Source: Lentimicrobium saccharophilum (GTDB taxonomy: Bacteria > Bacteroidota > Bacteroidia > Bacteroidales > Lentimicrobiaceae). Taken from it: DNA of 64,000 nucleotides. The notes under the pieces are model-generated. The model did not search any database. It saw nothing but the letters and a program-made list of their open reading frames with translations, and was not told the DNA's origin. This document shows positions 13,388 to 32,254 of this stretch, piece after piece. The stretch is taken from contig NZ_DF968183.1 of assembly GCF_001192835.1 (NCBI RefSeq), positions 1,137,338 through 1,201,337 of the forward strand, read 5' to 3'. The translations under genes were made by a program, and so were the position numbers. Numbering within the stretch: position 1 is the first letter of the stretch; the number at the start of each line of letters is the position of its first letter.

Positions 13388-13673
13388 GCATAATGATGTT
13401 GCCCCATCACCCGATAGGCTTTTATTCCTGAAGGTGCGATTAAGCATCTCCGGTGCTTTTATCCGGGTGGCCCGATGGCAGAATACTCTTTCAGAACATC
13501 CGACCCCTCCTGGGTCGTTTATTCATTTTATGCCAACGTTTTCTATACACCCATGACTCCTCCGGAGTCATAGGTATAGTCAGGTTAGTACGTCACGACC
13601 TCAGCAGGAGCGTATGTTGTTCCCGGATGGTCTTGGCTCCGCGGTTCCGGATGGTCCCGGCTGCATGGTTCCC

Positions 13674-13711
13674 GGTGGTCTCGTACCGATGGCTATCGGT
13701 ACGAGACCACC
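13674..13711. repeat. perfect inverted repeat, 17-base arms
   Basis: Left arm GGTGGTCTCGTACCGAT and its exact complement are separated by GGCT. The core recurs at 32065-32098 and, less perfectly, at 31973-32012. A second GTACCGAT/ATCGGTAC palindrome follows at 13725-13744. Confidence 0.9.
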
Positions 13712-13736
13712 ATACCTGCGAGCAGTACCGATAGAT

Positions 13737-13831
13737 ATCGGTACAAGACCACCATACTTTCAACCAGAGCCAGGTCCTCCATTCTATCGGTACAAGACCA
13801 CCATACTTTCGGGCAGAGCCAGGTCCTCCAT
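13737..13831. repeat. 46-base direct repeat, two copies
   Basis: The segments 13737-13782 and 13786-13831 match except for three changes in one four-base stretch (AACC against GGGC). Each starts with ATCGGTACAAGACCACCATA. The repeat period is 49 bases. Confidence 0.88.
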
Positions 13832-13955
13832 ACCTCCGGAAATTCCAATTGCAAACTTTTTCCGACCCCGGAGGGGTCGCATGTGTATAGAAACAACAGA
13901 TAAAGAAAACAAACCGGCCCCGGAGGGGTCGTATTTTTTTAGAGGTATATCTCCA

Positions 13956-15146
13956 TTATCCTTCCGACATTCTCTTGCACAGGGCGTGTTTCAATTGTTC
14001 CAGCGCTCTCATCAGAACCGGCCTCGGGCATGCCAGGTTCATGCGCATATAGCCATCGCCGCCCGGGCCGAATTGGGTGCCTTCGTTCAAACCGAGCCCG
14101 GCCTCTTCAATCATAAACTTTTTAAGTTCTGCATCGCTCATCCCGGTTTGACTGAAATCAAGCCAGGCCATATAAGTGGCTTCGGGGCGTATAACCTTTA
14201 CCTGCGGAAGATGGGTTTCAGCAAATTCAATCAGGGTGTGAATATTTCCATCAATGTAATCCAGAAGTTGTTCCAGCCATGCATCTCCATGCGTATAGGC
14301 GGCCTCTGCGGCTACGTTGCCGAAGAGATTGCCCATTTCAATGTGCAGGCCGTCGAGAACTTTGCGAAACCTTTTCATCAGCGAAGGATTGCTGATAATG
14401 ACCAACGAAGTCGCCATTCCGGCAAGGTTAAAGGTTTTGCTGGATGCAACCATGGTAACGGTTTTTGCCGCGATCTCCGGCGAAAGGGATGCCAGCACCG
14501 TATGATGAAATCCCCGGTTTACCAGATCGCAGTGAATCTCATCGGAAATCACCAGCACATTGTATTTCAGGCAAATATCAGCCATCCGCTTCAGTTCATC
14601 CGCCCTCCAGGCGTTTCCGGCCGGGTTATGCGGATTACTCAGAATCAGCATACGGGCACCATCACGGCATAACTGTTCAAGGTTTTCATAATTCATCCGG
14701 TAACGGCCGTTTTCCATAATCAGCTGATTATAAACCAGTTTGCGGCCATGATTTTTCACGGCATCGAAAAAAGGAAAGTAGACGGGCGGCTGAATGATAA
14801 CCTTGTCGCGACGGCGGGTAAATGCCAGCACCGCCATGTTCACCGCAGGAACAATGCCCGGTGAAAAGGCAATCCATTCGCGCTCTGTCCGCCAGTGATG
14901 GCGACGTTGAATCCAGGCGGTCAGGGCATCGAAACAGGAATCAGTCCGGATGGAGTACCCCAGCACTTCGTGCGCTGCCCGTTCCCGGATGGCATCCATT
15001 ACAAAATCAGGCGTCCGGAAATCCATATCGGCCACCCACATGGGAATGACCTCGTCATTTCCGAAGAAAAACTTACGCAGATCGTATTTAACGCAAGCCG
15101 TATTGCCACGTTCAATAATTTCGTCAAAGTTATATTGCATCTTCAA
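13956..15146 (-). CDS. MalY/PatB-type PLP-dependent aminotransferase/C-S lyase
   Basis: A 396-residue fold-type I PLP enzyme. The N-terminus 'PMWVADMDFRTPDFVMDAI' and the segment 'LGYSIRTDSCFDALTAWI' are characteristic of the MalY/PatB cystathionine beta-lyase subfamily. The PLP lysine is in 'VASSKTFNLAGM' (Lys near 237), the cofactor aspartate in 'NVLVISDEIHCDL', the substrate contact in 'LSNPHNPAGNAW', and the carboxylate-binding Arg in 'MRMNLACPRPVL'. Members split cystathionine or cysteine conjugates to homocysteine or pyruvate, ammonia and thiol, and some act as transaminases. The substrate is inferred. It is transcribed after the S74 gene's reverse neighbour gap and ends 25 bases short of the last hairpin of the 13.5-13.9 kb palindrome cluster, which may terminate it. 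Confidence 0.92.
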   Translation of the reverse strand: MKMQYNFDEIIERGNTACVKYDLRKFFFGNDEVIPMWVADMDFRTPDFVMDAIRERAAHEVLGYSIRTDSCFDALTAWIQRRHHWRTEREWIAFSPGIVPAVNMAVLAFTRRRDKVIIQPPVYFPFFDAVKNHGRKLVYNQLIMENGRYRMNYENLEQLCRDGARMLILSNPHNPAGNAWRADELKRMADICLKYNVLVISDEIHCDLVNRGFHHTVLASLSPEIAAKTVTMVASSKTFNLAGMATSLVIISNPSLMKRFRKVLDGLHIEMGNLFGNVAAEAAYTHGDAWLEQLLDYIDGNIHTLIEFAETHLPQVKVIRPEATYMAWLDFSQTGMSDAELKKFMIEEAGLGLNEGTQFGPGGDGYMRMNLACPRPVLMRALEQLKHALCKRMSEG

Positions 15147-15204
15147 AGCCGGAAAGATTATTAGCGGGTGCTAAATTAACCATTCCGGCAATAGAAGCCC
15201 TGCC

Positions 15205-17802
15205 TTATCTGGATTCAAGCATTTCGATCCGTCTTATCAACTGATCAATTTGTTGCTGCTGTGCTTCGATAATCTTTTGCTGTTCCTGAAAGGCCTTCAC
15301 AATAGGTGGAATAAATTCACCGTACCGCAGATTGTACAGTCCACCCTGGCTTTTTGGCGCATCAATCCCGCTGAAATTGTATCCGATTGATAGTGCGGCA
15401 TCTTCAACTTCCTGCGCAATAAAGCCGGTGTACACGATCGTTTCCTTTTCCTGCACAGCTTTCAGCTCTTCAGCCGAAGGAAAGGATGGCTGTTCATTTT
15501 CACGTAAATCCCGGGAATTCCGGTTATCCAGATAATCGTTCAGGGAAGTGACATTAAGGGTATAGGTCACAGGGCGCAGCAATTTTACAAACTCAATTCC
15601 AGGGACATTTTCACGGACATTTTTCTTATATCGTCCATCCGAAAAATTGCTCCAGCCGGTAAATCCGCCAATGCTGGTAACACTGCTATTCCCGATAACC
15701 ACCCTGTTGGAAGCAGTGGCCCTCGCATTGTAACCGATGGCAGTGCAATTGGTGTAGCCATCTGCATCCGGATAGGCCAATGCGCCGACAAAGGTGCCAA
15801 AGGACGCGGGGTGAAAATCTCCCGCCGAATAACCCAGACTGGTGTTATAGCTCGAGGTACTGTAATAGGATGAATATTGTCCGACAGCAGTATTGTATCC
15901 GCCCGAAAGGTTCATGTATAATGCCGAATAACCCAGTGCTGTATTTCTGCTACCGTTACTTAGAGTCCAGGAAGCATTATTACCGATGGCTGTATTGAAT
16001 TCACCGGTTAAATTTGAGTACAATGCCTGATCTCCGATGGCAATGTTATAGGATCCGGTAGAATTGGTAATCATAGACAAGTGGCCCAGGGCCGTATTGT
16101 GATGACCATAGGTGTTATTTCTCATCGACTGGCTTCCGATGGCTGTATTGTAATAGCCATAGGTGTTTTCCTGAAGGGTTTTTGAACCTACGGCCGTGTT
16201 GTGGGTAGCATGATACGTAAGGGTCGCATCGGTTTCATTCCGGTAAAGCGCCGAATCACCGATCGCAACCAGGTTGCTGCGACCGGAACTGTAGTACAGG
16301 GCCCTGGCCCCGATAGCAACGTTAGAACAGCCGCTCGTGTTGCTGTATAAACTTCTAACGCCCACTGCAACATTAGAATTGCCTGTAATATTGTTGGGCA
16401 GCGAATAATACCCGAACGCAGCGTTGTAGTCTCCTGAAACATTATCATAACCTGCATAACAACCGACAGCCGTATTATAATCAGCACTATCGGAATAATT
16501 GAGCGCAAAAGTGCCCACTGCAACATTGTAAATTCCTTTACTATTGGCAGTCAGTGCCCTGTTTCCGACTGCCACATTATAATATCCTGTTGTGTTTGAA
16601 TACAATGTCCGGTAACCAACTGCTGTATTTGCTGTCCCTGCAATGTTATTGTATAGCGACCAGTAACCTACAGCCGTATTGCCTTCGGCGCTTGTATTTG
16701 AAAACAATGCCTGAAAGCCCATAGCTGTATTCGACATTCCGGTAGTGTTCGTGTATAATGACTGATAACCGGCAGCTGTATTCTGAAATCCGGTAGTGTT
16801 GCTAAACATTGCTTTCGACCCGACCGCCGTATTTCTGGTACCGTGAACAGTGACAGTTGCATTGGTTCCATTATTATACAATGCCGAATCCCCGACCGCT
16901 ACAAGATTATTTCTCACAGTGTTCTGGCGCAGCGCCCTTATGCCGATGGCTGTATTTGAGTAACCAGAAGTATTGCTATACATAGCATTGTAACCAATGG
17001 CTGTGTTATTATGGCCTGAGATGTTGGAATACATTGTTCCATAGCCAATTGCGGTATTCGTACAGCCAGAGGTATTGCTATATAACGGCACATATCCAAT
17101 ACCAATGTTACCTTCGCCTATGGTATTCGAAAACAACGCTTTATCGCCAACGGCAGTATTGTAGCGTCCGGTATTCTCAGCCGGGGTTGCGCTGCCTCTC
17201 AATGCTTCACAGCCAATGGCTGTATTGAAAGTTTCTCTGCCGGTGGTCCGGTCATCGGCATAAAACATGGCATAATAGCCCAAAGCAGTACTCCGGCTGT
17301 TGGCTTTATTGTTATAAAGGGCCGAATAACCCAGCGCGGTGGAGTTCATTCCGGTTGTGTTCAGCGCAAGTGCCAGATAACCCAGCGAGAGATTATGCTG
17401 TGCTCTTTCTATCCTTCCGGCAAATGCGCTATTAATGCGAAAGTTGAGCGGCATATCGTCGGTTGTGCCGATAAAGTTAGATGGTGAGGATGTTCCCGCA
17501 TTCCCGGTGATCGACCAGCCGAAACCTGACCCTACATAGACCCACGCGGGACTTGCCGGGGTACCGGCATTGTAATAAAAACCCGGTAAACTGTTCGTCT
17601 GATAAACCAGCAAACCGGTAGCCGGGGAGGCAATGGCATTTCGCTGGGTAAATGTCATGCGCGGAATCAGCAAACCGCTGCTTGTTGATTTAACATCCAG
17701 CATGGCTGAAGCGTCGGGATTTGCGCCATCGGTGTTGATGGCTACCTGGGAATAGAGACTTATTCCCGGTACCAGCAGAAGAAATAATATCAGCTTTTTC
17801 AT
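15205..17802 (-). CDS. large secreted repeat protein with C-terminal S74 intramolecular chaperone
   Basis: An 865-residue protein with a signal peptide (MKKLILFLLLVPGISLYS). Residues about 20-135 form an N-terminal domain common to Bacteroidota surface proteins ('AMLDVKSTSSGLLIPRM'). From about 135 to 710 it is built of roughly thirty 17-residue repeats of the pattern N(T/V)A(V/I)G-x-x-(A/S)L-(Y/F)-x-N-x-(S/T)-G, resembling YadA-head or tail-fibre beta-roll repeats. The tail (about 718-865) is a peptidase S74 domain: 'NFSDGRYKKNV' gives the Ser-Asp cleavage point near 721/722, and it ends in a coiled coil ('EQQKIIEAQQQQIDQLIRRI'). In phage tailspikes S74 folds the trimer and then cuts itself off. 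No T9SS tail is seen. The adhesin or fibre role is inferred. Confidence 0.88.
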   Translation of the reverse strand: MKKLILFLLLVPGISLYSQVAINTDGANPDASAMLDVKSTSSGLLIPRMTFTQRNAIASPATGLLVYQTNSLPGFYYNAGTPASPAWVYVGSGFGWSITGNAGTSSPSNFIGTTDDMPLNFRINSAFAGRIERAQHNLSLGYLALALNTTGMNSTALGYSALYNNKANSRSTALGYYAMFYADDRTTGRETFNTAIGCEALRGSATPAENTGRYNTAVGDKALFSNTIGEGNIGIGYVPLYSNTSGCTNTAIGYGTMYSNISGHNNTAIGYNAMYSNTSGYSNTAIGIRALRQNTVRNNLVAVGDSALYNNGTNATVTVHGTRNTAVGSKAMFSNTTGFQNTAAGYQSLYTNTTGMSNTAMGFQALFSNTSAEGNTAVGYWSLYNNIAGTANTAVGYRTLYSNTTGYYNVAVGNRALTANSKGIYNVAVGTFALNYSDSADYNTAVGCYAGYDNVSGDYNAAFGYYSLPNNITGNSNVAVGVRSLYSNTSGCSNVAIGARALYYSSGRSNLVAIGDSALYRNETDATLTYHATHNTAVGSKTLQENTYGYYNTAIGSQSMRNNTYGHHNTALGHLSMITNSTGSYNIAIGDQALYSNLTGEFNTAIGNNASWTLSNGSRNTALGYSALYMNLSGGYNTAVGQYSSYYSTSSYNTSLGYSAGDFHPASFGTFVGALAYPDADGYTNCTAIGYNARATASNRVVIGNSSVTSIGGFTGWSNFSDGRYKKNVRENVPGIEFVKLLRPVTYTLNVTSLNDYLDNRNSRDLRENEQPSFPSAEELKAVQEKETIVYTGFIAQEVEDAALSIGYNFSGIDAPKSQGGLYNLRYGEFIPPIVKAFQEQQKIIEAQQQQIDQLIRRIEMLESR
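15780..17400 (-). repeat. 51-base coding repeats within the S74-tail protein
   Basis: About thirty degenerate 51-base units encode the 17-residue N-T-A-V-G-Y repeats. They are in frame and variable at the DNA level, so they are a protein repeat and not a CRISPR array or satellite. Confidence 0.85.
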
Positions 17803-18277
17803 TGGAATAAGGATTTATGTTAGTGCTTTAAGTGAATAAAATCAGCAAGAGCTATCTCTTAAAGAAAAAATTCATAAACCGGAAGTATGGAAGGCGGGTA
17901 GCAATCTGGCGGAATCCCGGGTAAAAGGGAGAGCTGAGAATAAAGGTGTAATATACATCATTTTATCAACATTTACAAATTTCGAAGAGATTAAAATTGC
18001 TGGATCATCTGCCGATTGATCCGCCACAACCGGCAATATGATTTTTACCCGGACAAAGTATTTCGCAATGCTTAAACGATTAAGTGTTTGTAATCAGCAC
18101 AATAAGAATTGTACTGAACAAACATTTAACGGGGATTGCCCATATAGATTCAAAAGTTCAGCCCTGGCGGGCTTAGTAATGATCAGTCCGGGCTACAAAC
18201 TTCAGGAAGGTATCACAGGCAATTATTGCCCTGCTTATGCATAAGTGGTATTTAAAGGCTATATAGCGAAGGAAAGG
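17803..18277. other. 475-base intergenic region with no recognised gene
   Basis: Lies between the GH5 stop and the S74 gene start, both on the minus strand. It should contain the S74 promoter, but I see no exact TAnnTTTG box. One plus-strand frame of 68 codons has no support. Confidence 0.5.
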
Positions 18278-20992
18278 TTAAATACGGTCATTCATCAGGA
18301 CAACCCTGGCTGTTCCGGTTTTTGTGGTACTGAGCATACGGATGATATACATTCCGGAGGGAAGATGGCTTAAATCCAGATCCATCCTTTGCAGGCCACC
18401 TTCAAGGGCGCTATGGTATACCTCCTGACCTGCCATATCCGTTACCTGCAGGAGAACTTCGTTCATAGCGAAGTCAGCTAAATCAATTTTGAATATTCCG
18501 TTCCCGGGATTCGGATAAACAATCAGACGGTTTTTCATGTCTATTTCACCGGTTCCGGCAGGTTTGGCAATGTTGAACCAGTTGATGTTATACTCTCCCG
18601 CAAATGAATATAGCCTGAGCCTGAGGTTTCCGGCAGGCAGGTTTACGGAAACGTTTTGATTTTCCCAGTTCTGCCAGCCGCCGGTCGCTGAAACGTTCAT
18701 AGAGCCATAAGTCTGGAAACTCCCTCCGGATGAAGCCCGGATGCTGATGATTCCATTGGAATACTGGGAAGCAATCCGGAACAGCATCTGATATTCACCG
18801 GCTTCCGGCACCTTAATCAGATAATCAAGATAGTCCCCGTTATTGGCGAATCCCACATTGTAACCACCACCGGCATCGGTACAATTCTCAAGCTGAAATC
18901 CGTTATTAAAATAAAAATCCTCCGCTTCTATGCGCGCCGGCAACAGATAACGCCGGGGAAGGTTATTTTTAACGTTCATGTCAGAAAAGTGCTCCAACGG
19001 TTGTATTCCATTCATGATTCCGCTTCCGGTATAGCTTATCTTAACCTGCTGTCCATATTCCACAGGAGTTTCAGGCACCAGCACCAGCCTTGCCGGCTGA
19101 CCGGGAACAACCGTGACTGAAGATATTCCCGTCTGTTGATCTGATATTTTTAAGGTAAAATCATCCGGAACAGCACTCATTTCAGTGATTTCCTTGTTGA
19201 GCGTGATGATTATTTCCTGACCGGATTCAGTGGTTTCGGCATAAATATATTTGAAGGGTACCGCGCTGACCGGCACCGGATTATCAAATATAAACAGGTT
19301 GATGTTTGAGCCTCCCCTTTCGAAATAAAGCCTGATTTTGTGGGTTCCTTCCGGGATGATTACGTCATTCACCACATTGGATGTCCATGTGTTAATTGAA
19401 CCTGTGTTGGGCAGGGTAAGCGGGCTGATAAGATCTGTTCCGTTGATGGTAAATCTTATAATCCCTGTCTGGGCGCTGTTGGAAGCCGAACGGATCGTCA
19501 GTCTGTAGGCGGCAGCACTATCCGCATCTAAAGTATATTGCAGCCACTCCCCTGTTTCGGTCCACCGGATATTGAAACCATTTCCGCCTGCAAATAGATC
19601 ACTGCATTCGTCAATGTCCACCCCGTCATTGCGGTAAACCCAGCCCTGGTTCCAGTTGGTATAACTGCCTGTATTCAGATGGTAATTGGCTGAATCGGCA
19701 TCCTTATAAGCAAAGGAACTCCGGCCAAGATCATAATTAACGGCGTGAACCGGTTCGCCGGGTTTATACACCCTGAAAGGCAGTGTTTCGTTTGTATATG
19801 GTTGCCGGATCATAGCGTCAATCACATCCCTTTTTACCATACAATTTTCAATCCGGTGATTGTCTGCCCATTCCATCACGGCCTCAAAAGCCTGCTCAGC
19901 CGTGAGCACAGGGGTACCGAACCTCCAGTAGCTGATCAGGTTGTTATAATTCTGGCTCTCCGGTACCTGAAGCACATTGTTGATCCCGGCCTTTTTCACC
20001 GGCCACCACGACCATCCGATCCTGTTTTGCTCGCAAAGGGCAATAAGACCAGTGAACCAGCTGTTGGAGTTTTCGCCTGATTCACCCAGCCAGGTTGGCA
20101 CATTCCAGGTATTCCTGAGGTTAATGATCCAGCTGATATCATTCTGGGTATTGTAAGTCCAGTATTTATGAAAACTGTAGACCATATTATTATCCCACGG
20201 AGGCGTGAGCCCTGTATAATCATTGGCGAACCAGTTGCCTTCTATGATGATCATGTGGTTCTGATCCACCGCCCGGATGGCATTGGTAATTTCACCGTAA
20301 AGCTGTCTGAGCAGTGTTCCGCCGGGCAGTTCCCAGTTGGGTTCATTGATCAGGTCATAGCCGCCTATCCAGGGTTCCTGGGCATAACGTTCGGCCAGCC
20401 TGGCCCACAAAGCCACGGTTTTCCTTCTGTTTTCGGCACTTTCCCATAGCGAAGGCTTAGCAGGATCGTAATCCGAGATATTGGCATCTTTGCCCTGCCC
20501 GCCGGGTGCCCCGTGCAGATCGAGGATCAGGTACATCTGATTGTCGCCGCACCAGTCTAACAGGCTGTCGATCCGCACAAAACCTTCTTCAAACCAGGTG
20601 TCCTGTCCGGCTACCGGCTCATCCTCTATAGGCAGGGTGAACCATTTGTAATGCATGGCTACCCTTACACTGTTGAAACCCCAGGCTTTCATGCTGTCCA
20701 CATCGGCACGGGTAAAATGATTGTCGAGCCAGGTTTCATAGAATTCTTCAGTTAGTTCAGCACCAATGGTTTGCGTCAGTTTATTCCTGAATCCGGTATG
20801 TGTGCCGGCTACCTCGGCCGATTTCATCATATAACCCTCCATCAACAGCCAGTTACCGGTGCCGATGCCGCGGAGTATCACCTCCTCTCCTGCCCCGTTA
20901 TAGATATACTTTCCTGAAGTATGAAGAAAACCCTGGGCAGTAATTCCGGATGATACCAGTGAAAAAACAAACAAAAACAAGAACCTGATCAT
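18278..20992 (-). CDS. secreted GH5 glycosidase with two CBM6-like modules and T9SS sorting domain
   Basis: A 904-residue secreted protein. After the signal peptide (to about 19) the GH5 domain spans about 25-370: 'GFNSVRVAMHYKWF', 'MYLILDLHGAPGGQG', the acid/base Glu in 'YDLINEPNW' (near 217) and the nucleophile Glu in 'PTWLGESGENSN' (near 304). A CBM6-like carbohydrate-binding module follows (about 410-560), then a SwmB-like beta-sandwich (about 580-670), then a second CBM6-like module (about 685-815, 'ARIEAEDFYFNNG'). The end 'RLIVYPNPGNGIFKIDL' begins a type A T9SS sorting domain, which targets the enzyme outside the cell. The presence of 'HGAPGGQ' places it near exo-beta-1,3-glucanase-like GH5 enzymes; the true substrate is unknown. 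The gene has its own TATCTTTG box 92 bases upstream. Confidence 0.9.
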   Translation of the reverse strand: MIRFLFLFVFSLVSSGITAQGFLHTSGKYIYNGAGEEVILRGIGTGNWLLMEGYMMKSAEVAGTHTGFRNKLTQTIGAELTEEFYETWLDNHFTRADVDSMKAWGFNSVRVAMHYKWFTLPIEDEPVAGQDTWFEEGFVRIDSLLDWCGDNQMYLILDLHGAPGGQGKDANISDYDPAKPSLWESAENRRKTVALWARLAERYAQEPWIGGYDLINEPNWELPGGTLLRQLYGEITNAIRAVDQNHMIIIEGNWFANDYTGLTPPWDNNMVYSFHKYWTYNTQNDISWIINLRNTWNVPTWLGESGENSNSWFTGLIALCEQNRIGWSWWPVKKAGINNVLQVPESQNYNNLISYWRFGTPVLTAEQAFEAVMEWADNHRIENCMVKRDVIDAMIRQPYTNETLPFRVYKPGEPVHAVNYDLGRSSFAYKDADSANYHLNTGSYTNWNQGWVYRNDGVDIDECSDLFAGGNGFNIRWTETGEWLQYTLDADSAAAYRLTIRSASNSAQTGIIRFTINGTDLISPLTLPNTGSINTWTSNVVNDVIIPEGTHKIRLYFERGGSNINLFIFDNPVPVSAVPFKYIYAETTESGQEIIITLNKEITEMSAVPDDFTLKISDQQTGISSVTVVPGQPARLVLVPETPVEYGQQVKISYTGSGIMNGIQPLEHFSDMNVKNNLPRRYLLPARIEAEDFYFNNGFQLENCTDAGGGYNVGFANNGDYLDYLIKVPEAGEYQMLFRIASQYSNGIISIRASSGGSFQTYGSMNVSATGGWQNWENQNVSVNLPAGNLRLRLYSFAGEYNINWFNIAKPAGTGEIDMKNRLIVYPNPGNGIFKIDLADFAMNEVLLQVTDMAGQEVYHSALEGGLQRMDLDLSHLPSGMYIIRMLSTTKTGTARVVLMNDRI

Positions 20993-21083
20993 ATTACAAC
21001 TTTCTAAAGTAACAATTTTAATTACAGCAACTTAAACTCTTAATGCTTCAACCCGGATTTGGATTTCACCTCAGGTCGCCTTG

Positions 21084-21091
21084 CAAAGATA
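21084..21091 (-). promoter_or_regulatory. putative -7 element (TATCTTTG) of the GH5 gene
   Basis: Exact consensus match on the minus strand, 92 bases before the ATG, suggesting a leader of about 85 bases. No -33 element. Confidence 0.5.
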
Positions 21092-21142
21092 ATCAATAAC
21101 ACTCAGGATAGTGTAATTAATACACCTACCCGGGCAAATATG

Positions 21143-21168
21143 AAAAAACCCGGCAAATCCGGGCTTTT
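21143..21168 (-). terminator. terminator of the rnf operon
   Basis: On the minus strand AAAAGCCCGGATTTGCCGGG is followed by TTTTTT. The GC stem of five pairs is extended by A-T pairs. It lies 25 bases past the rnfA stop. Confidence 0.75.
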
Positions 21169-21192
21169 GCAATGATATATTCTTCTTATTGG

Positions 21193-21765: not shown

Positions 21766-21795
21766 AATCTCTTTCTTTTGTATAAAACCCGTTAA

Positions 21796-22377
21796 CTACG
21801 CCTTATTCAATTTATTTATCAGTGCGATCAGGTAACCAAGTGCGATAAAAGCACCCGGTGCGAGCACAAACACCAGAATAGTATCGCCCTGGATAAATTT
21901 AATCCCGAACAGGGCTCCACTACCCAGGATTTCGCGGATGCCACCCAGCAATGTCAGGGCGAAGGCAAAGCCCAGACCCATACCGAGCCCGTCGATCATG
22001 GAAGAAAATACATCGTTTTTGGAAGCAAAAGCCTCAGCCCGTCCCAGCACGATACAGTTCACCACGATCAGGGGAATAAAAAGTCCGAGTTGCTCGTGCA
22101 AGGCAGGTACATATCCGGCCATCACCAGGTCAACGATGGTAACAAAGGATGCAATAACCACAATAAACGAAGGGATACGCACCTTGTCGGGAATGATGTT
22201 TTTCATCAGCGAAATCACCACGTTGGCCATCACAAGAACAAAAGTGGTGGCCAGACCCATACCCAGGCCATTAATGGCCGAAGTGGTAACCCCCAGAGTC
22301 GGACACATTCCGAGCAGCAGCACCAGAACCGGGTTGTTCTTTATAAATCCTTTGGAAAAATTCTGCATCTGGTTCAT
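21796..22377 (-). CDS. rnfE: Rnf electron transport complex subunit E
   Basis: A 193-residue membrane protein paralogous to RnfA. It begins '[20 protein letters not shown]', with the Cys of the first membrane CP motif, and has '[20 protein letters not shown]' with the second conserved Cys. RnfE and RnfA pack as an inverted pair and carry an iron-sulfur cluster within the membrane. The ATG overlaps the rnfG stop by four bases (ATGA), so the two are translationally coupled. A strong Shine-Dalgarno run (AAGGAGGAGAG) lies just before the ATG and doubles as the last codons of rnfG. This is a confident call. Confidence 0.96.
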
Positions 22378-23952: not shown

Positions 23953-23953
23953 A

Positions 23954-25285: not shown

Positions 25286-25289
25286 ATTA

Positions 25290-25297
25290 TCTCCTCC
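25290..25297 (-). promoter_or_regulatory. strong ribosome binding site deciding the TTG start of rnfC
   Basis: GGAGGAGA on the minus strand ends four bases before a TTG. No ATG is near, and the TTG gives the N-terminus expected for RnfC. Confidence 0.7.
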
Positions 25298-25335
25298 GCG
25301 TATTGGTTTATAACTTGTTAACGACTGTAGAATGG

Positions 25336-26217
25336 CTAGCCGGCTGTAACAGGTTCGGCAACCTTTTCCGTTCCGGGTTCACCGGGCTTTTCTTTCCGCA
25401 ACGGGAAGTTGGTCTCAAGAATGGCCCCGGTAGGACACACGGGAGCGCACTTGCGGCAAAGCCTGCATTTATCGTAATCAATGTAAGCCAGATTATTCTG
25501 CATCGTAATGGCATCATATGGACACTCCTTTACACATTTGCCGCAGCCGATACAGGCAACACTGCAGTTTTTCTTCGCCGGTCCGCCTTTTTCAGTATTC
25601 ACACAGGAAACAAAAATCCTCCTGTCTTTTTTTCCTTTTTTCCTGAGTTCAATGATTTTGCGAGGACAAGCCGTAACACAGGCGCCGCAGGCCACACATT
25701 TCTCATCACTAACCACAGGAAGCCCGGTTTCAGGGCTGATATAAATCGCATCGAATTTACAGGATACCACACAATCGCCCAGGCCGAGACAACCATTCGG
25801 ACAACCGCTTTCGCCTGCCGATAGTGCATGGGCAAAAGCACAGGATTCAGCGCCGTCGAAGATTACCTTCTGAGGGGCGTTAATCCGGCTTCCGTTACAA
25901 CGTACCACGGCAATCATCGGTTCTTTCTCTTCAGCCTCAAGCCCGAGCACCGACGCTATTTGTTTCATGGTATCGCTGCCGCCAACCGGACAGTTCAGCT
26001 TCGATAAATCCCCTGTTTTTACCAGTTCTTCCGCAAATGCACGGCAACCGGCCAGACCACAGCCTCCGCAATTGGCACCTGGCAGAATTTCGTTGACAAC
26101 ATCTATCCGGGGATCCTCAATAACTTTGAATTTCTGAGCGACAAAATAAAGAATTACCGCAGAGGCAACTCCGATGGCGCTCAGTGAAAGTACGGCAAAT
26201 AATACGGTTTCGTTCAC
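25336..26217 (-). CDS. rnfB: Rnf electron transport complex subunit B (ferredoxin-like)
   Basis: The entry point for ferredoxin electrons. I start it at a GTG (VNETVLFAVLS), because RnfB proteins begin just before the single membrane helix (about 4-24); an upstream in-frame TTG would add seven residues. The cluster motif near 47-75 reads 'GANCGGCGLAGCRAF' plus 'NCPVGG'. Several further ferredoxin-type [4Fe-4S] motifs follow, among them 'CVACGACVTACP', 'CIGCGKCVKECP' and 'CRLCRKCAPVCP', and also 'CPNGCLGLGDCVVSC'. About 293 residues, which is long because of the extra clusters, as in clostridial and Bacteroidota forms. It is the first gene of the rnf operon, with 50 bases to rnfC, and has a -7 box TACATTTG about 60 bases upstream. 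Confidence 0.95.
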   Translation of the reverse strand: MNETVLFAVLSLSAIGVASAVILYFVAQKFKVIEDPRIDVVNEILPGANCGGCGLAGCRAFAEELVKTGDLSKLNCPVGGSDTMKQIASVLGLEAEEKEPMIAVVRCNGSRINAPQKVIFDGAESCAFAHALSAGESGCPNGCLGLGDCVVSCKFDAIYISPETGLPVVSDEKCVACGACVTACPRKIIELRKKGKKDRRIFVSCVNTEKGGPAKKNCSVACIGCGKCVKECPYDAITMQNNLAYIDYDKCRLCRKCAPVCPTGAILETNFPLRKEKPGEPGTEKVAEPVTAG

Positions 26218-26602
26218 TGTCAGCTCTTTTAGGTGCAAATTATTCCGTGTTCATTTACCCGCTAAGGCAGAACGTGACAAATGTAGCAACAAAAAAAAAA
26301 CAGACTACAGCAAATCTATAAAATTAAATACATTCCATTTATTTGATTATCAATTCATTACCTATATATAAAATTTAACCTGACTAAACAGACATATTCT
26401 TATAAACTGATTTACAAGTATATCCGATTTTGTTTAGAATTACTATAAATTACATCAGGTTGTGAACAAAACCCGGTTCTTACATTGACTTGTACAGGTA
26501 TATCACAAATAATAGCTGATATTCAATCCATTACAAATCCAATTCAGCATCAGCAGTATTCATAAAACAGTCTGGAAAAACTGATAACCGGGTAGCTGAG
26601 AA
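26218..26602. other. AT-rich 385-base gap upstream of rnfB
   Basis: It separates the methyltransferase stop from rnfB and holds two -7-like boxes near its rnfB end. The remainder is strongly AT-rich with no open frame of interest and no hairpin I can defend. Compared with the tight packing inside the operon it is unusually long. Confidence 0.6.
26278..26318 (-). promoter_or_regulatory. two putative -7 elements upstream of rnfB
   Basis: TACATTTG (26278-26285) and TAGATTTG (26311-26318) on the minus strand are both exact TAnnTTTG matches. The first would give a leader of about 55 bases before the GTG start. Confidence 0.5.
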
Positions 26603-27232
26603 TCAGGAGGAAATCCGGTTTTTGCTGCAGTGAAACACCCTGAATGACTTATTATCATTCAGGGGCACATCATATTGCATCTCAATTTTAACACCCAAAT
26701 TACTGAGCAGTTCATAAAGTCCGGCTCCCGAAACCGTTCCAGCAAAAGATGAAAGCAAATCAAGGGATCTATATTGTGTTTTGGTTACAAAAGCGGTATT
26801 CCGGGTTTGCTGTATAACAATCACCAATGCACCATCCGGGGATAATGCGTCCAGCAATTCAGGTATCAGCACATCCGGCTTCACGTATTCAAGCACCAGA
26901 CCGCAAAAAATCAGGTCAACATTACTGAAAGAGAGGGGATCAACTTCCAGGTCCAGGCATTGGATGTTCATCCCCGGTATAGTCTGTCCAAAACGCTGGT
27001 TAAGTTGTTCCAGGTAAGCGGGATTGATATCCACGGCATGGATAACCCTTGTAATAGCAGGATCAACTTCTTCAAGGCCATTTCCCGTTGCACACCCGAT
27101 CAGGGCGATACTGCCGGGCGTATAGCGCTTAAGGCAATCGCCAAACAAACGGCTGAGCATCTGCGTCTGCCCGACTTCGCGCATATGATTTTCATAATCC
27201 TGAAAAGGAATCTGCAGCCAGGGGTTCTTCAT
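26603..27232 (-). CDS. class I SAM-dependent methyltransferase
   Basis: About 209 residues from the ATG MKNPWLQIPF; the upstream ATG gives a hydrophobic extension that looks like noise. The Rossmann-type SAM site is 'IALIGCATGNGLEEV' (motif I, near 44-58), followed by 'HAVDINPAYLEQLNQRF' with the acidic ribose contact, 'IQCLDLEVDPLSFSN' and 'DLIFCGLVLEYVKPD'. The glycine-rich loop is GCATGNG, an accepted variant of E/DxGxGxG. Later there is 'SPDGALVIVIQQT', the usual motif III area. The substrate cannot be told. It sits between the rseC-like gene (48 bases upstream) and rnfB (about 385 bases downstream), where many Bacteroidota have nothing; see findings. Confidence 0.85.
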   Translation of the reverse strand: MKNPWLQIPFQDYENHMREVGQTQMLSRLFGDCLKRYTPGSIALIGCATGNGLEEVDPAITRVIHAVDINPAYLEQLNQRFGQTIPGMNIQCLDLEVDPLSFSNVDLIFCGLVLEYVKPDVLIPELLDALSPDGALVIVIQQTRNTAFVTKTQYRSLDLLSSFAGTVSGAGLYELLSNLGVKIEMQYDVPLNDNKSFRVFHCSKNRISS

Positions 27233-27280
27233 ATACCATTTAAAGACAACAAAAAACAGGAAACCTGACAGTTTCAATCA

Positions 27281-27700
27281 TCACGCCTGGATGCTGAATT
27301 TGAACCGCTTTCCCATCCGGTCTCTGAGCAGATACAGGACGGCATAATAGGGTAACAACACCCCCAGGGAGACCAATCCGGCCACTACTTCTGAAGTCAG
27401 CAATACCGCGATGATAAGCACCACAAAAACCAGCAGAAAGGGCAGAATATAGCCATAGAAAAGCGCTGCATTACCGGCTTTCACATCGGCTTGAACCGAC
27501 ACAATCTGTCCGGGTTTGAGGCTGGTGCCGGGCTCAAGCTCGGCTTCAATGATGCGTTCACTGGTATCGGAGGCTGTGCAGGCGCCTTTTGCATGGCAGG
27601 AAGCACAGGCGCTCACGCTGATCACCTTTACGAAAACTTTCTGTCCATCAATGCTTTGAACAACGCCTGTTTTTGCAATACAATCGGTTGAGGATGACAT
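27281..27700 (-). CDS. RseC/MucC family protein (SoxR-reducing system)
   Basis: A 139-residue protein. The N-terminal domain (about 1-75) contains 'VFVKVISVSACASCHAKGAC', a Cys-rich motif (C-x2-C-x5-C) typical of RseC. Two hydrophobic helices follow (about 78-98 and 102-125), after which the basic tail 'LLRDRMGKRFKFS' faces the cytoplasm. In E. coli RseC and the rsx products keep SoxR reduced; in Bacteroidota and others the rseC gene stands directly upstream of rnfB, and its role with Rnf is not fully known. Here it is 10 bases after the SDR gene and separated from rnfB by a methyltransferase gene. Call is by family pattern plus position. Confidence 0.87.
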   Translation of the reverse strand: MSSSTDCIAKTGVVQSIDGQKVFVKVISVSACASCHAKGACTASDTSERIIEAELEPGTSLKPGQIVSVQADVKAGNAALFYGYILPFLLVFVVLIIAVLLTSEVVAGLVSLGVLLPYYAVLYLLRDRMGKRFKFSIQA

Positions 27701-27710
27701 TTTTTTCTTT

Positions 27711-28412
27711 TCAGGGAGTGGACAAAGATACCGGCAAAATCTTTCCGTTGAAATAGCGATTGCCGTTTATAGCGAAATCGGCAACAAATTCCGCCATTTT
27801 TCCGGCTGAAACCGGTGCTTCGTAACCGGGAAATGCCTTTGCGAGCATTTCGGTCTGAACTGCGCCGAAAGCAAGGCAATTGACGGCGATCTGCTTGTCC
27901 TTCAGCTCTTCGGCCAGACATTCTGTGAGCACAGCCAAAGCGCCTTTGCTGGCGCTGTATGCTGACAACCCGGGAAACTTCACGCTTCCCTGCACGCCTC
28001 CCATGCTCCCGATATTCACGATGTGCGAACCCGGTTTCATTAAGGGGAGCAATGCCTGTATCAGCAACATCGGCGCTTTCACGTTCACACTGAATACCTC
28101 ATCTATCTCAGGCGCAGTAATCTTACCCAGGGGCTTATTCAGCATGGCGCCTGCATTGTTGATCAGGATATCGATTTTGCCAAGCTGGCGGTTGATCTGA
28201 TGAGCCAGCGATTCCATATCACCGGTAGCCAGATCGAACTGCAGAGGCTGAACCACCGTTTCCTGCCGTTTGATGTTGCACTCGCCCGACAATGCCTGTA
28301 TCTTCATACCGTTGCGTGCAATCACAATCAGTCTGTTTCCTGGAATTCCGGCCAGAATTTTTGCCGTTTCGCGCCCGACACCGGATGAAGCGCCTGTGAC
28401 AACAATATTCAT
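27711..28412 (-). CDS. short-chain dehydrogenase/reductase (SDR)
   Basis: A 233-residue classical SDR. The nucleotide-binding motif TGxxxGxG reads 'NIVVTGASSGVGRETA' at the very N-terminus, 'ILINNAGAMLNKPLG' is the NNAG motif near 85-99, and the active site has Ser in 'VNIGSMGGVQGSV' with 'YSASKGALAVLTE' (Tyr and Lys, YxxxK). It therefore should oxidise or reduce an alcohol/ketone with NAD(P)(H); the substrate is unknown. It ends 10 bases before the rseC-like gene and begins 76 bases after hydF, so it could be read in either unit. The sequence 'GKIDILINNAG' is conventional and there is no sign of damage. Confidence 0.9.
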   Translation of the reverse strand: MNIVVTGASSGVGRETAKILAGIPGNRLIVIARNGMKIQALSGECNIKRQETVVQPLQFDLATGDMESLAHQINRQLGKIDILINNAGAMLNKPLGKITAPEIDEVFSVNVKAPMLLIQALLPLMKPGSHIVNIGSMGGVQGSVKFPGLSAYSASKGALAVLTECLAEELKDKQIAVNCLAFGAVQTEMLAKAFPGYEAPVSAGKMAEFVADFAINGNRYFNGKILPVSLSTP

Positions 28413-28488
28413 TTTTAGTTTTTTAGGTTACGATCCTTCCCGCAGTCGTACAAAAGCCTGCAGCCAATCAGTCCGTTAAATTTTCCGG

Positions 28489-29718
28489 TTAAAGATAATC
28501 ATTCTCACCGTGATCTCCTGCAGAAAATGGAGCAACGGCCCTTTTATAAATTCCGTGTATCCAGGCAATGGCCATACCGTAGTTGGTCACCGGGATACCG
28601 GCATCCACGGCGGGTTTCAGCCTGTTGATAATTTGTTTGCGGGTGATCACACAGCCTCCGCACTGAATCACCATGGCATAATCGCGGATATCGCGCGGGA
28701 GCTTCGACAGTCCTGCCACTACCTCGTATTCAAGTTTCTTACCGGTGAAATTGCCCAGCCAGCGAGGGATTTTAACGCGGCCGATGTCATCGCAGGATAC
28801 ATGGTGGGTACACGACTCGAGGATCAGGATGCGGTCCCCATCCTTCAGTTCCGAAAGTTTGGGCGTTCCCTTCAGGTAATTCCTGAAATCGCCCCGCTGC
28901 CTGGCCAGTAGAATGCTGAAACTGGTCAGCGGTATTTCAGGTGGTACTGCAGCATCCGCTTTCAGAAAAACCTGACTGTCGGTGACCACCAGCGCCGGTT
29001 TGGGATTCATCCGTCTGATAAAGCCGTCAACTTCCCTTTCCTTGCAAACCACGGCAATGCCGTCGTGATCCAGAATATCACGGATGGCCTGCACCTGTGG
29101 CAGGATCATCCTACCTTCCGGAGCTTCAATATCAATAGGGGTTATCAGTAACACCACATCACCGTATGAAATCAGATCGCCCAGCATAGATGGCGCGGTA
29201 TAAGCCGATTCGGGGATCAGCCGCTGCATGGCCGCAACCAGGCCATCGACCCCATGCCTGCTGATCGCGCTGAATTCCAGCACCGGAACGGTGTATCTGG
29301 TTTCCAGGTCCTGCTTCAGGCCTGCACTAAGGGGTTGAAGATCACTCTTATTGTGCAGCACCAGAAAAGGAACAGCTTTTTCCTCAAATTCAGCAATCAG
29401 TTTCTCCTCCTCCTGCGAAAACTCATTTCCGGTGATCACCAGAATGGCAAAATCAATGACTTTCAGCATTTCGCGGGATTTTTCCACCCGCTTCAGTCCC
29501 AGTTCTCCGGTATCGTCAATCCCGGCGGTATCAATCAGAATTACCGGACCTATCCCGGGAATTTCCATAGATTTCTTTACAGGATCGGTAGTTGTTCCGG
29601 CCACATCCGAGACAATGGCCAACTCCTGCCCCGCCAGGGCATTGATCAGCGAACTTTTTCCGTTGTTGCGACGGCCAAAAATGCCGATATGGGGTTTGGT
29701 ATCTTTTCCTTTGGACAT
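28489..29718 (-). CDS. hydF: [FeFe]-hydrogenase maturation GTPase HydF
   Basis: HydF is the scaffold on which the di-iron subcluster of the [FeFe]-hydrogenase active site is assembled with HydE and HydG before transfer to HydA. The 409-residue protein has an N-terminal GTPase domain: P-loop 'IFGRRNNGKSS' (15-22), 'VAGTTTDPV', the DxxG in 'LIDTAGIDD' and NKxD in 'LHNKSDL'. After a dimerisation domain the cluster-binding domain has 'ESCTHHVSCDD' (Cys303, His305) and 'VIQCGGCVI' (Cys353, Cys356). The usual His before CxxC is a Gln. hydE, hydG and hydrogenase genes are not in the window. It lies 247 bases after aspA on the same strand, with a repeat-rich leader in between. Confidence 0.93.
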   Translation of the reverse strand: MSKGKDTKPHIGIFGRRNNGKSSLINALAGQELAIVSDVAGTTTDPVKKSMEIPGIGPVILIDTAGIDDTGELGLKRVEKSREMLKVIDFAILVITGNEFSQEEEKLIAEFEEKAVPFLVLHNKSDLQPLSAGLKQDLETRYTVPVLEFSAISRHGVDGLVAAMQRLIPESAYTAPSMLGDLISYGDVVLLITPIDIEAPEGRMILPQVQAIRDILDHDGIAVVCKEREVDGFIRRMNPKPALVVTDSQVFLKADAAVPPEIPLTSFSILLARQRGDFRNYLKGTPKLSELKDGDRILILESCTHHVSCDDIGRVKIPRWLGNFTGKKLEYEVVAGLSKLPRDIRDYAMVIQCGGCVITRKQIINRLKPAVDAGIPVTNYGMAIAWIHGIYKRAVAPFSAGDHGENDYL

Positions 29719-29722
29719 AAGG

Positions 29723-29764
29723 ATTCAAAATTCAAAGATTCAAAGATTCAAAAATTCAAAGATT
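29723..29764. repeat. short tandem repeat (ATTCAAAG type) before hydF
   Basis: Five near-identical copies of ATTCAAA(A/G) with a 7-8 base period, beginning five bases upstream of the hydF ATG. Unit number could vary between strains. Confidence 0.8.
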
Positions 29765-29788
29765 AGCTTCGCTGAACTCTCCCGATAG

Positions 29789-29806
29789 TCCCGATAGCTA
29801 TCGGGA
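29789..29806. repeat. perfect 18-base palindrome (TCCCGATAGCTATCGGGA)
   Basis: Located in the presumed leader of hydF, about 70 bases upstream of the ATG. The CGATAGC core resembles the arms of the palindromes in the two clusters. It is followed by GATCGGGATCGG-like repeats. Confidence 0.85.
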
Positions 29807-29854
29807 TCGGGATCGGTTCAAAGATTCATTTTCGCTTGCGCGGGTAAATGATTC

Positions 29855-29862
29855 CAAAAATA
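29855..29862 (-). promoter_or_regulatory. putative -7 element (TATTTTTG) of hydF
   Basis: Exact consensus match on the minus strand, 137 bases before the ATG. The resulting leader would contain the palindrome and the tandem repeat. Confidence 0.4.
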
Positions 29863-29965
29863 TTTAATGGATTCTGGTGTTATTATGCTTTTGTGATGAA
29901 AAGATTCATGGATTTATTATCAAGGAATGTACTGTTTGTAAGCCAGATGCAGCCATAATCACCGG

Positions 29966-31408
29966 TTAAGTTAGATCATTGATGGTGTATCCGGCTTTTA
30001 ATAGATTGGAAGGTTTTAAAATCTCTTCCAGTTTTTCAGCAGGTAAGAGTTTCATTTCGCTGTTGATTTCCAAAATGCTTTTATGTCCGGGTTTCATCAG
30101 CAGCGCGACTTCGGTCGCCTTGTGGTAACCGATGTAAGGTGTGAGGGCCGTGGCGATGGCCGGACTGCGCAGCAACTGGTCCAGGCTGGCGGTGGTATCC
30201 ACTTCCAGCCCGCTGATCATATTTGTCAGCATGGTATTACAGGAAGCCACCAGTAATTTCAGGCTGCCCAGCAGGGCATGTCCGATCAGGGGAAGATATG
30301 CGTTAAGGTCGAGGCAGCCCTGCGCACACAACCCGGCGATCAGCGCATCATTGGCATACACCTGGTGTGCTGCGCTGATGACAAATTCGGGAATCACCGG
30401 ATTCACCTTACCCGGCATGATGGAGCTGCCTGCCTGCAGTTGCGGCAACTTCAGCCGGGCGCCGGCAATATCGGAGGCCAGCAGGCGGATGTCGTTCACA
30501 ATCTTTTCAAGATTTACCGCCAGGGCCTTCATAATGGCGTGCACTTCAACAAAAGCGTCCAGGTTGCTTGTGGTATCGCTGAGGTTTTCGCCCCGGGTAA
30601 CGGGAAGTCCAGTAAGATGCTGCAACTGCTTCGTCACCTCCATAACGAAAAAGCGCGGCACCGCCACAGAAGTACCGATGGCACTTCCGCCCAGGTTCAC
30701 CACCTTGATGCGCTCGAAGCACTTTGAAACGCGCCACCAGTCGCGCGAAAGCGCATCGCTGTAATTTGAAAACAGTTTACCGTATGAAGAAGGCACCGCC
30801 TCCTGCATCTGGGTGTAACCAATGCGCAGATTATCGCGGTAGCGGCCTTCGAGCGCCTCAAAACCGCCTCTCAGCCGGTTAACGGACTTTTCAAGATCGT
30901 TCAGCAGCAGCATTACGGCCACTTTCAGCGCTGTTGGCACCACATCGTTTGTACTCTGAAAGATATTGGCATGCTCGGTCGGATCCACCTCGCTGTAGTT
31001 TCCCGGATTGAAACCCAGTTTCAGCAGGGCCACATTGGCAATGATCTCATTTACATTCATGTTGATGCTGGTACCCGCGCCACCGCTGACGGCAGGCACG
31101 ATGAAATGAGCGACATGCTGTCCGGCAGAAACCTCCCGGGCGGCTTCAGTTATCGCTTCAAGCACTGGCGCAGGCACCCTGCGGATCGCAGGCATGGCTG
31201 AACCTAGTTTCTGCTCCAGCGCTTTATAATAGGAAGATGCCGTCAGGTAGCAGGCTTGCTTTACCAAACCCATGGCCCGGTACCACTCTTCATAAAAAAT
31301 CGTGGTATCGGGAAAGTTTTCACGCGCGCGGAGGGCGTTGATGCCATAGAGTGCTTCGGCCGGGATCCGGCGGCTGCCCAGAAAATCGGTTTCGGTGCGG
31401 TGTTCCAT
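29966..31408 (-). CDS. aspA: aspartate ammonia-lyase
   Basis: A 480-residue member of the fumarase/aspartase superfamily, splitting L-aspartate to fumarate and ammonium. The signature 'GSSIMPGKVNPVIPE' (catalytic Ser in the SS loop) is complete near 325-339, and the N-terminus 'DFLGSRRIPAEALYGINALR' with 'STNDVVPTALKVA' and 'GGAGTSINMNVNEIIAN' are all typical. The match to aspartase rather than fumarase rests on 'GTSINMNVNEII' and 'EHANIFQSTND'. The promoter box TACTTTTG ends only four bases before the ATG, so the message may begin at the start codon. It lies directly upstream of hydF; aspA next to hydrogenase maturation genes recurs in anaerobes, as far as I recall. Confidence 0.93.
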   Translation of the reverse strand: MEHRTETDFLGSRRIPAEALYGINALRARENFPDTTIFYEEWYRAMGLVKQACYLTASSYYKALEQKLGSAMPAIRRVPAPVLEAITEAAREVSAGQHVAHFIVPAVSGGAGTSINMNVNEIIANVALLKLGFNPGNYSEVDPTEHANIFQSTNDVVPTALKVAVMLLLNDLEKSVNRLRGGFEALEGRYRDNLRIGYTQMQEAVPSSYGKLFSNYSDALSRDWWRVSKCFERIKVVNLGGSAIGTSVAVPRFFVMEVTKQLQHLTGLPVTRGENLSDTTSNLDAFVEVHAIMKALAVNLEKIVNDIRLLASDIAGARLKLPQLQAGSSIMPGKVNPVIPEFVISAAHQVYANDALIAGLCAQGCLDLNAYLPLIGHALLGSLKLLVASCNTMLTNMISGLEVDTTASLDQLLRSPAIATALTPYIGYHKATEVALLMKPGHKSILEINSEMKLLPAEKLEEILKPSNLLKAGYTINDLT

Positions 31409-31412
31409 GGTT

Positions 31413-31420
31413 CAAAAGTA
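31413..31420 (-). promoter_or_regulatory. putative -7 element (TACTTTTG) next to the aspA start
   Basis: Exact match ending four bases before the aspA ATG on the minus strand. A TTG lies 17 bases further upstream. The start site would fall on the start codon. Confidence 0.5.
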
Positions 31421-32064
31421 GTGATTTTTAACATCTGCAATTAGCTCCAGACGCATGAGAATTTTACCCAGACCGAAGGAATTCATAGATATTTGTATAA
31501 GCCGCAGTCAGGATAGATTATCAGGCATAATTATAAAGAGCATTTTCAAGCAAACATTTCAGGGTGGGTCCTAAAATATATACGATTCTGAATCTCAATA
31601 AATATCCGACCTCGACTGGGTCGGATAATCGTTTGGGATTGGCCTGGCTATAATCATAGGACCCCGCCGGGGTCATGATTTTCTTACCCAACTATTACGA
31701 TAACTCCGGAGGAGTCACATGTTTATAGAAAACATGATTCTAAAAATTATGCCGGCCCCGAAGGGGTCGAATAACCGATTCCTGATCCTGCAATTTCACG
31801 TTGGCATAACAAAAGGTATCTTTCAAAACAACAGGTAGCATACACCCCCACAGATTTACCGGATTTTCATGTACCGATGGCGATCGGTTTTGCCCTGAGG
31901 TATGGTGGTCTCGTAACGATGGTTATTGGTGCCGCTTGTAGGTATGGTAATCTTGGCTTCGCTCGTAAGTATGGTGGTCTCGTACCGATCGCTATCGGTA
32001 CCGCTCGACCACCAGTAATAAAATTCAAAACAAATTATTTTCTGGCGAAGCCTGGATGGTGTGG

Positions 32065-32098
32065 TGGTCTCGTACCGATCGCTATCGGTACGAGACCA
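32065..32098. repeat. perfect inverted repeat, 15-base arms
   Basis: TGGTCTCGTACCGAT and its complement around CGCT. It is the same element as 13674-13711, with similar flanking sequence but in the opposite orientation. Confidence 0.9.
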
Positions 32099-32254
32099 TC
32101 CGGGAACCGCGAAGCCGGGAGCATCCGGGAACCGTGAAACCAAAACCACACAGTCGCTTCTCCGCCCCAAAATTGACAAGTGTTACCTTTACACAGAAAT
32201 AATCGGTTATTATTCCCTCAATTACTGACATGCATCTGTCTTTATTATTTTATC

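Follow-up and report, generated by a model that had tools for sequence, protein, structure and literature searches.

Hairpin repeats of a Lentimicrobium chromosome and small stand-alone GIY-YIG genes as their possible partners

Few repeats of bacterial chromosomes are commoner than hairpins of the repetitive extragenic palindrome (REP) type. In the REP, bacterial interspersed mosaic element (BIME) and REPIN systems that go with the REP-associated tyrosine transposase (RAYT, or TnpA-REP), short dispersed intergenic hairpins, often in inverted pairs, include copies around a small nuclease-type gene, and the repeats described here resemble them in both respects (PMC6006769, available part). A further superfamily, the CGTC-tagged REPs, was surveyed by Di Nocera et al. 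in 2013 and apparently lacks a dedicated transposase in the part of that survey available to us (PMC3733652). We have analysed 64,000 nucleotides (nt) of the Lentimicrobium saccharophilum contig NZ_DF968183.1 (positions 1,137,338–1,201,337; 'the window' below), in which two intergenic clusters of hairpins of a family that we call GGTCTC lie 18 kb apart. Their core is of a class, GAG/CGA, that recurs beside small GIY-YIG genes. Such hairpins lie next to the gene in many bacterial groups, which suggests that the GIY-YIG enzyme spreads, or once spread, the repeats, and the gene most likely encodes the enzyme of a widespread hairpin class.

Hairpins around small GIY-YIG genes

Upstream of the PhoH gene, at the site of the second window cluster, three relatives (G004, G011 and G012) carry a GIY-YIG gene of ∼100 codons among GAG/CGA hairpins. 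At the same site there are only 250 and 144 nt in G005 and G009, and the window has hairpins there with no trace of a GIY-YIG gene. The best reading is that the gene has gone from this site in the window's genome and the hairpins have been left as relics.

An alignment of 12 GIY-YIG proteins was used to fetch further loci from the genome collection, and the best 80 of 562 confirmed candidates were taken. With at least 300 nt on each side of the gene, 74 of the 80 were usable; a hairpin was defined by arms of at least 5 and a loop of 2–12. In 32 of the 74 loci the sharing of repeats between the left and right flanks of the gene exceeded the 99th percentile for 148 mismatched flank pairs, and the consensus, arm-GAG-loop-CGA-arm′, was read off these repeats. 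Since the consensus came from the 80-locus set itself, the real controls are the permuted cores, the distance profile and a second set of loci.

A hairpin was found within 400 nt of the gene in 57 of the 74 loci, and on both sides in 33. Hairpin density was 3.91/kb in the first 250 nt, 0.73/kb in the next 250 nt and 0.00–0.23/kb beyond 500 nt, and there were 171 matches compared with 0 or 1 for each of 17 permuted cores. When the count was confined to non-coding DNA by a crude mask of open reading frames (ORFs), the density was 4.87/kb near the gene versus 0.44/kb beyond 1 kb. Regardless of the arms, the nearest core lay within 400 nt in 69 of the 80 loci. Arm positions 1–4 pair in 66, 69, 67 and 67 of these 69 loci, each count above the maximum of 500 shuffles, and at positions 2 to 4 several pair types occur among them. 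By our own reading GAG facing CGA would give tandem G.A mismatches, which the folding program models poorly.

The second set, a phylum sample, gave hairpins at 23 of 30 loci when longer loops were allowed, with a negative gene from the window's own genome among the 30. Loci titled as outside Bacteroidota (many of them metagenome-assembled genomes, with Ignavibacteria and Calditrichia counted as outside) had a hairpin in 15 of 24 cases by our own reading. Long-frame GIY-YIG loci, UvrC- or DnaQ-like by size, had one in none of 13. Hairpin type is uniform within a locus (265 of 277 hairpins, at the 68 loci with more than one) and clusters on the nuclease tree, with 18 changes compared with a shuffled mean of 24.4 and none of 200 shuffles as low, a contrast that near-copies inflate.

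There was also an asymmetry in how the hairpins are placed. The GAG...CGA strand of the nearest upstream hairpin is the strand of the gene in 42 of 53 loci, and the nearest downstream hairpin lies on the opposite strand in 40 of 56; where both sides have a hairpin, 24 of 40 loci combine the two. Around the core, conservation stops at about −9 (115 hairpins). A guanine at −7 is present in 99 of the 115, whereas its pairing position is a cytosine in only 46, so that one strand is distinguished. No GTAG (GT[AG]G) consensus was seen at the 5′ foot of these hairpins, −7 being G and −8 mostly C.

In one genome, G131, copies with the same terminal inverted ends occur with and without the gene. Twelve chosen hairpin pairs of 88–100 nt have the common ends GTCATGCTGAGCG.../...CATGAC and unrelated flanks. 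At a further locus (L283) the same two ends lie 771 nt apart and enclose a GIY-YIG gene with one in-frame stop; its left end matches the solo copies L272 and L279 at 39 of 40 positions, and the right end departs from them through a core indel.

Dispersed copies are widespread. The 14-nt core YGAGCGNAGYCGAR gave 1590 matches in 148 genomes compared with 88 for the reversed pattern. Of the 72 genomes in which the nuclease was found (E ≤ 1e-20), 24 had at least 10 copies, versus 3 of the 76 without it (rank test of copies against nuclease presence, p = 5.7e-4, uncorrected for relatedness); the exceptions G191 and G163 have small GIY-YIG genes that fall below the E cut. In G061 the 195 core copies are spread evenly over both strands.

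The encoded protein is recognizable as a GIY-YIG enzyme. PF01541 scored above its cut-off in all four proteins given, and the catalytic-type residues Y6, Y16, R26, H30 and E63 are invariant in the 12 aligned proteins. The predicted structure (mean pLDDT 81.7, pTM 0.70) has the UPF0213 proteins 1zg2 and 1ywl, then Slx1, as its nearest solved structures. Because the Slx1 entries are titled branched-DNA nucleases, cleavage of a hairpin or cruciform by the small GIY-YIG protein is plausible by analogy.

A tblastn search of plasmids (77 records) supplied 11 further loci; a phage search gave 24 records, none of which was used. Hairpins of the form CGTC-ATCC...GGAT-CCA flank the nuclease gene on both sides in Shinella HZN7 and Rhizobium CIAT894, CCTC-tagged hairpins lie by the gene in Sinorhizobium and Rhizobium tumorigenes, and TGTC-tagged ones in Planktothrix and Spirosoma. 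The tag scan was positive at 7 of the 11 plasmid loci, with 23 matches within 400 nt and none beyond 800 nt; seven control tags gave 0, 0, 0, 0, 0, 1 and 7 matches at the same loci. Across 16 kb of the CIAT894 plasmid there are 7 tagged hairpins, all at 6.8–9.3 kb, with the nuclease gene at 8.4–8.7 kb. By eye, L297 showed nothing obvious, and L292, L295 and L301 had other repeats on both sides.

The window clusters and the inversion in a sister genome

The features of the two clusters are collected in Table 1. A sequence-only reading of the window had drawn attention to the two perfect palindromes, both of which are present, and to a matching flank that made them a unit of more than 80 bases, copied in inverted orientation 18 kb apart. 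This is borne out as a unit of 80–90 nt: copy 1 and the reverse complement of copy 2 are identical in 78 of 91 columns, with 2 gap columns. The idea of an isolated unit with a mere flank did not survive, as the arm recurs outside the window and the 'outer flank' is a second, decayed hairpin of the GGTCTC family, intact in the sister genome G004 where it reads GGATGGTCTCGGCTCCGCTCGACCACC.

Table 1. Coordinates of hairpins, palindromes and clusters in the window
Feature	Position	Strand	Evidence
Cluster 1: intergenic, between GH25 gene and class I/II aminotransferase gene; left breakpoint of G004 inversion	13388–13955		
GACTCC-type palindrome, of the family associated with the L029 Y1 transposase gene	13555–13569		Pattern scan
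Copy 1 of inverted unit: decayed hairpin (GGTTCCGGATGGTCCCGGCT...) then perfected palindrome	13628–13716	+	Alignment to copy 2; five-way alignment with G004 copies
Perfect palindrome GGTGGTCTCGTACCGAT-GGCT-ATCGGTACGAGACCACC	13674–13711		Inverted repeat 17 nt, 100%; 38-nt DNA fold −20.7 kcal/mol
Degenerate hairpin AGTACCGATAGATATCGGTACAAGACCACC, single arm only	13725–13756		Inverted-repeat and arm scans
Lone degenerate arm ATCGGTACAAGACCACC	13785–13804		
GACCCC-type palindrome	13864–13878		Pattern scan
Cluster 2: intergenic, between lyase (Lyase_1) gene and PhoH gene; right breakpoint of G004 inversion	31409–32308		
GACCCC-type palindrome	31660–31674		Pattern scan
Degenerate hairpin copy TGGTCTCGTAACGATGGTTATTGGTGCCGC	31906–31935	+	
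Sole canonical GGTCTC-family hairpin in window: arm-GAG-CGGTACCGATAGCGATCGGTA-CGA-arm′	31972–32014	−	
Copy 2 of inverted unit	32058–32148	−	
Perfect palindrome TGGTCTCGTACCGAT-CGCT-ATCGGTACGAGACCA	32065–32098		Inverted repeat 15 nt, 100%

The arm GGTCTCGTACCGAT matched 8 times in the window (at most 2 mismatches) compared with 0.25 expected by shuffling. With at most 3 mismatches a single arm matched 25 sites genome-wide; 17 lie outside the window, 5 of which were judged by eye to be probable chance matches in coding sequence. The reversed-pattern control gave 11. The 28-nt palindrome core (at most 3 mismatches) was found at two sites in the 4.5-Mb genome, both within the window, and its reversed-pattern control gave none. 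In a five-way alignment the nearest G004 copy has a canonical, imperfect arm (CGCTCGACC), and the perfected palindrome is a derived state, common to both window copies and absent from that copy. As both window copies carry the same derived palindrome, a relation by copying or gene conversion is indicated for the two inverted arrays. An Rfam search of the window returned no family at the gathering threshold.

Other hairpins were seen in the same genome. The window has a second family of the class: another hairpin with a GAG...CGA core, ATTCTGAGCGTTAGCGAAGAAT, is present twice, 59 nt apart, at 57506–57527 and 57565–57586. At L016 and L022 the hairpin loops are enlarged by nested inner palindromes (CCGATnGCTATCGG type), like palindromes inserted into palindromes.

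In G004 an inversion of 18 kb has its breakpoints at the two window clusters. The G004 contig, which aligns at about 85–92% identity in most blocks and 77–78% in two, is collinear with window positions 1–13654 and 32234–62159 and carries 31422–13835 inverted. Copy 1 of the inverted unit contains the end of the left collinear block, and the right junction is occupied by ∼7 kb of additional DNA that includes arrays of GGTCTC-family hairpins. GH25 and aminotransferase genes adjoin as in the window in six relatives (G002, G005, G006, G007, G008 and G009), and lyase and PhoH genes in four (G005, G009, G011 and G012); in G002, G007, G008 and G010 the next gene of the lyase side, X, adjoins PhoH. As the gene adjacencies of relatives match the window, the inversion is derived in G004, and its simplest cause would be recombination between the inverted arrays. 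The same polarity disfavours the inversion as the origin of the inverted copies.

Two other differences from G004 were noted. Positions 53125–55792 of its contig C5 (∼2.7 kb) are missing from the window at 4220, where the two are otherwise collinear. The extra DNA at the right junction (L080, 3787–9412 on C5) contains ORFs of 707 and 385 amino acids (aa), an ATPase-like ORF of 421 aa and a ParB-like ORF of 272 aa, named by eye.

The window's genome itself has six GIY-YIG matches, none near GGTCTC hairpins. One gene (L085) has other palindromes on both sides. Small GIY-YIG genes directly adjoin tRNA-Val and tRNA-Asp genes at L086 and L088 (G000:C2:958880 and 959228) and L084 (G000:C1:959836). 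L086 has tandem copies of the GIY-YIG gene; after each comes a repeated tRNA 3′ end with a terminator-like stretch, as if by insertion at the tRNA end.

There are three Y1-type genes in the genome (PF01797), each lying by eye among its own palindromes. The one at G000:C1:2280353 (L029) is surrounded by GACCCC/GACTCC palindromes, with 14 copies in 3.3 kb; its protein scored 58.4 against the IS200 transposase model (cut-off 55) and, against NCBIfam REP_Tyr_transpos, 23.2 bits, short of the cut-off of 80. The other two, L028 (G000:C2:493677) and L030 (G000:C1:547617), have palindromes of the GCCCTGAAAGGGC and GACGCGTC types, so that at least three Y1-linked palindrome families are present. In G011 (C14:73601–75100, L041) tandem GACCCC/GACTCC palindromes extend over more than 1.4 kb downstream of the aminotransferase gene, far exceeding window cluster 1.

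A possible mechanism and its alternatives

We consider it probable that these repeats form a REP-like system with a stand-alone GIY-YIG endonuclease of ∼100 aa as partner, which would cleave and mobilize them, and that the window holds its relics. The repeated unit is a small array of REP-like hairpins with GGTC/GACC arms, in many of which an inner palindrome enlarges the loop, and the endonuclease is encoded between such hairpins. Recognition of the folded hairpin by the enzyme may rest on the conserved GAG/CGA step together with a strand-specific base on the 5′ side, and the enzyme may nick beside it. Repair or rejoining might then copy hairpin pairs to other intergenic sites as non-autonomous elements, similar to REPINs or to miniature inverted-repeat transposable elements (MITEs), and the hairpin-bounded gene likewise as the autonomous form. 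In the window's genome two relic hairpins, inverted and 18 kb apart, would have been homogenized into perfect palindromes; in G004, recombination between the inverted arrays would have produced the inversion with both clusters as breakpoints. The wider proposal, that stand-alone GIY-YIG proteins mobilize both the GAG/CGA hairpins and the CGTC REPs, together a very large class of REP-like hairpins in bacteria, as a second, HUH-independent REP system, we hold to be slightly on the likely side.

Several observations weigh against this proposal. Family searches of G061, the genome with 195 core copies, gave two GIY-YIG genes, both long-frame, and no Y1 gene. Where the nuclease match was better than E 1e-28 (29 genomes), 11 genomes have fewer than 5 core copies. 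A hairpin was absent from 12 of 19 further short-frame GIY-YIG loci in six genomes (G004, G011, G012, G163 and G191 among them), so that not all small GIY-YIG genes belong; the 7 positives include three overlapping neighbours, and some subfamilies adjoin other palindromes or tRNA genes. Hairpin type clusters only modestly on the nuclease tree, which is poorly resolved. The CGTC tag was not enriched in the 80-locus set (0.03/kb near the gene compared with 0.06/kb far from it), and the CGTC and GAG/CGA classes thus overlap only partly. By eye, the flanks of the 12 solo copies in G131 showed no target-site duplication of 3 nt or more; REP-type elements would need none. No clean pair of empty and occupied sites was found: a Rhizobium plasmid comparison gave no shared left flank, a Sinorhizobium query matched only multi-copy repeat pieces and close relatives, and the orthologous intergenic regions of G005 and G009 are without hairpins and too diverged to fix the ends of the element.

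The GIY-YIG gene might instead be a homing-type selfish gene that lands at existing hairpins, something else spreading the repeats. GIY-YIG is a classic homing-endonuclease fold, the proteins gave weak profile matches to a group I intron endonuclease, and both G061 and the genomes with a nuclease but few hairpins would fit. Against this, the hairpins form inverted ends around the gene, the identical ends in G131 occur with the gene and, 12 times, without it, copy number tracks the presence of the nuclease, and no other candidate enzyme was found; we regard this explanation as rather unlikely. A Y1 (RAYT/IS200-like) transposase moving the GGTCTC hairpins as ordinary REPs would suit their generally REP-like architecture and the three Y1 genes lying among palindromes, but each of those genes has a separate family, and a GAG/CGA hairpin was found at none of the three. 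Among the Y1 loci of G131, G191 and G075 a core lay within 1.5 kb in 1 of 11, and G061, G088 and G163 have no Y1 genes. On these counts we reject the Y1 transposase as the partner and rate the idea as highly improbable. That the hairpins are host terminators or RNA-stabilizing elements, arisen or kept independently, and lie near GIY-YIG genes as a by-product of non-coding space, is very unlikely: they are intergenic and could form RNA stems, but within non-coding DNA they are 11 times denser near the gene than elsewhere in the same loci, and conservation extends to core letters that lie outside the stem and to a base on one side only.

The remaining alternatives concern the window. The sequence-only reading had seen GACCCC hairpins beside the unit in each cluster, which is correct, and had taken the two palindrome families to travel together, as one larger non-autonomous element or by preferred nested insertion. 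In a pattern scan around 13 distinct GGTCTC loci of the genome, GACCCC/GACTCC palindromes lay within 1 kb in both window clusters and at none of the 11 others, and the two families accompany different genes. In relatives, with whose orthologous regions the sequence-only reading had proposed to compare the unit, the two intergenic regions are often short or filled with other sequence. The composite element is rejected, and we give it hardly any credence; neither it nor nested insertion finds support. Although they occupy common intergenic space in the window, the two families do not travel together. Staggered breaks can leave inverted duplications where inversions end, and the inverted unit might on that account be a by-product of the inversion and not its cause. 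This too we judge highly improbable, as the window order is ancestral and the inversion lies in G004, yet the inverted unit is in the window.

Comparison with known systems

The open-access literature searched (titles, starts of abstracts and term counts, with subscription papers and preprints outside its scope) contained no link between GIY-YIG proteins and REP-like repeats. Only one REP/BIME paper mentions GIY-YIG as well, and in the part available it has both gene names in one table, unlinked (PMC9465073); the word GIY-YIG is absent from PMC5082802 and PMC12306157, and six 15-nt core variants gave no matches in the open-access paper texts searched. The GIY-YIG protein of ∼100 aa is a concrete candidate enzyme for the CGTC superfamily, left without one in the available part of the 2013 survey (PMC3733652). 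As cognate hairpins are defined in growable species, the question is reducible to a simple cleavage assay. Should the proposal be true, miniature transposable elements in several phyla would be driven by a class of nuclease otherwise familiar mainly from homing and DNA repair, and the question of what moves the CGTC REPs, which that survey had left open (PMC3733652, same part), would be answered. The window in addition provides a case of hairpin clusters as the breakpoints of a chromosomal inversion.

Compared with the REP, BIME and REPIN systems, the partner here is a GIY-YIG protein in place of an HUH/Y1 enzyme, and the hairpins have a GAG...CGA core and a G at −7 where a GTAG foot would be expected. 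The CGTC superfamily (PMC3733652, available part) is approached most closely by the hairpins beside GIY-YIG genes in Shinella, Rhizobium, Planktothrix and G131, which have the CGTC or TGTC tag, stems starting with AT and tails of CCA or CT. The differences are that a GIY-YIG gene adjoins the hairpins here and that the window's own family is without the tag. UPF0213-type stand-alone GIY-YIG proteins and Slx1 are alike in sequence and predicted fold, but for UPF0213-type genes no connection to hairpin repeats was found in the literature searched. With the GIY-YIG homing endonucleases the system would share a selfish nuclease gene and a cut-and-repair logic; it differs in being intron-free, in the position of the gene between dispersed intergenic hairpins, and in the existence of gene-free copies with the same ends.

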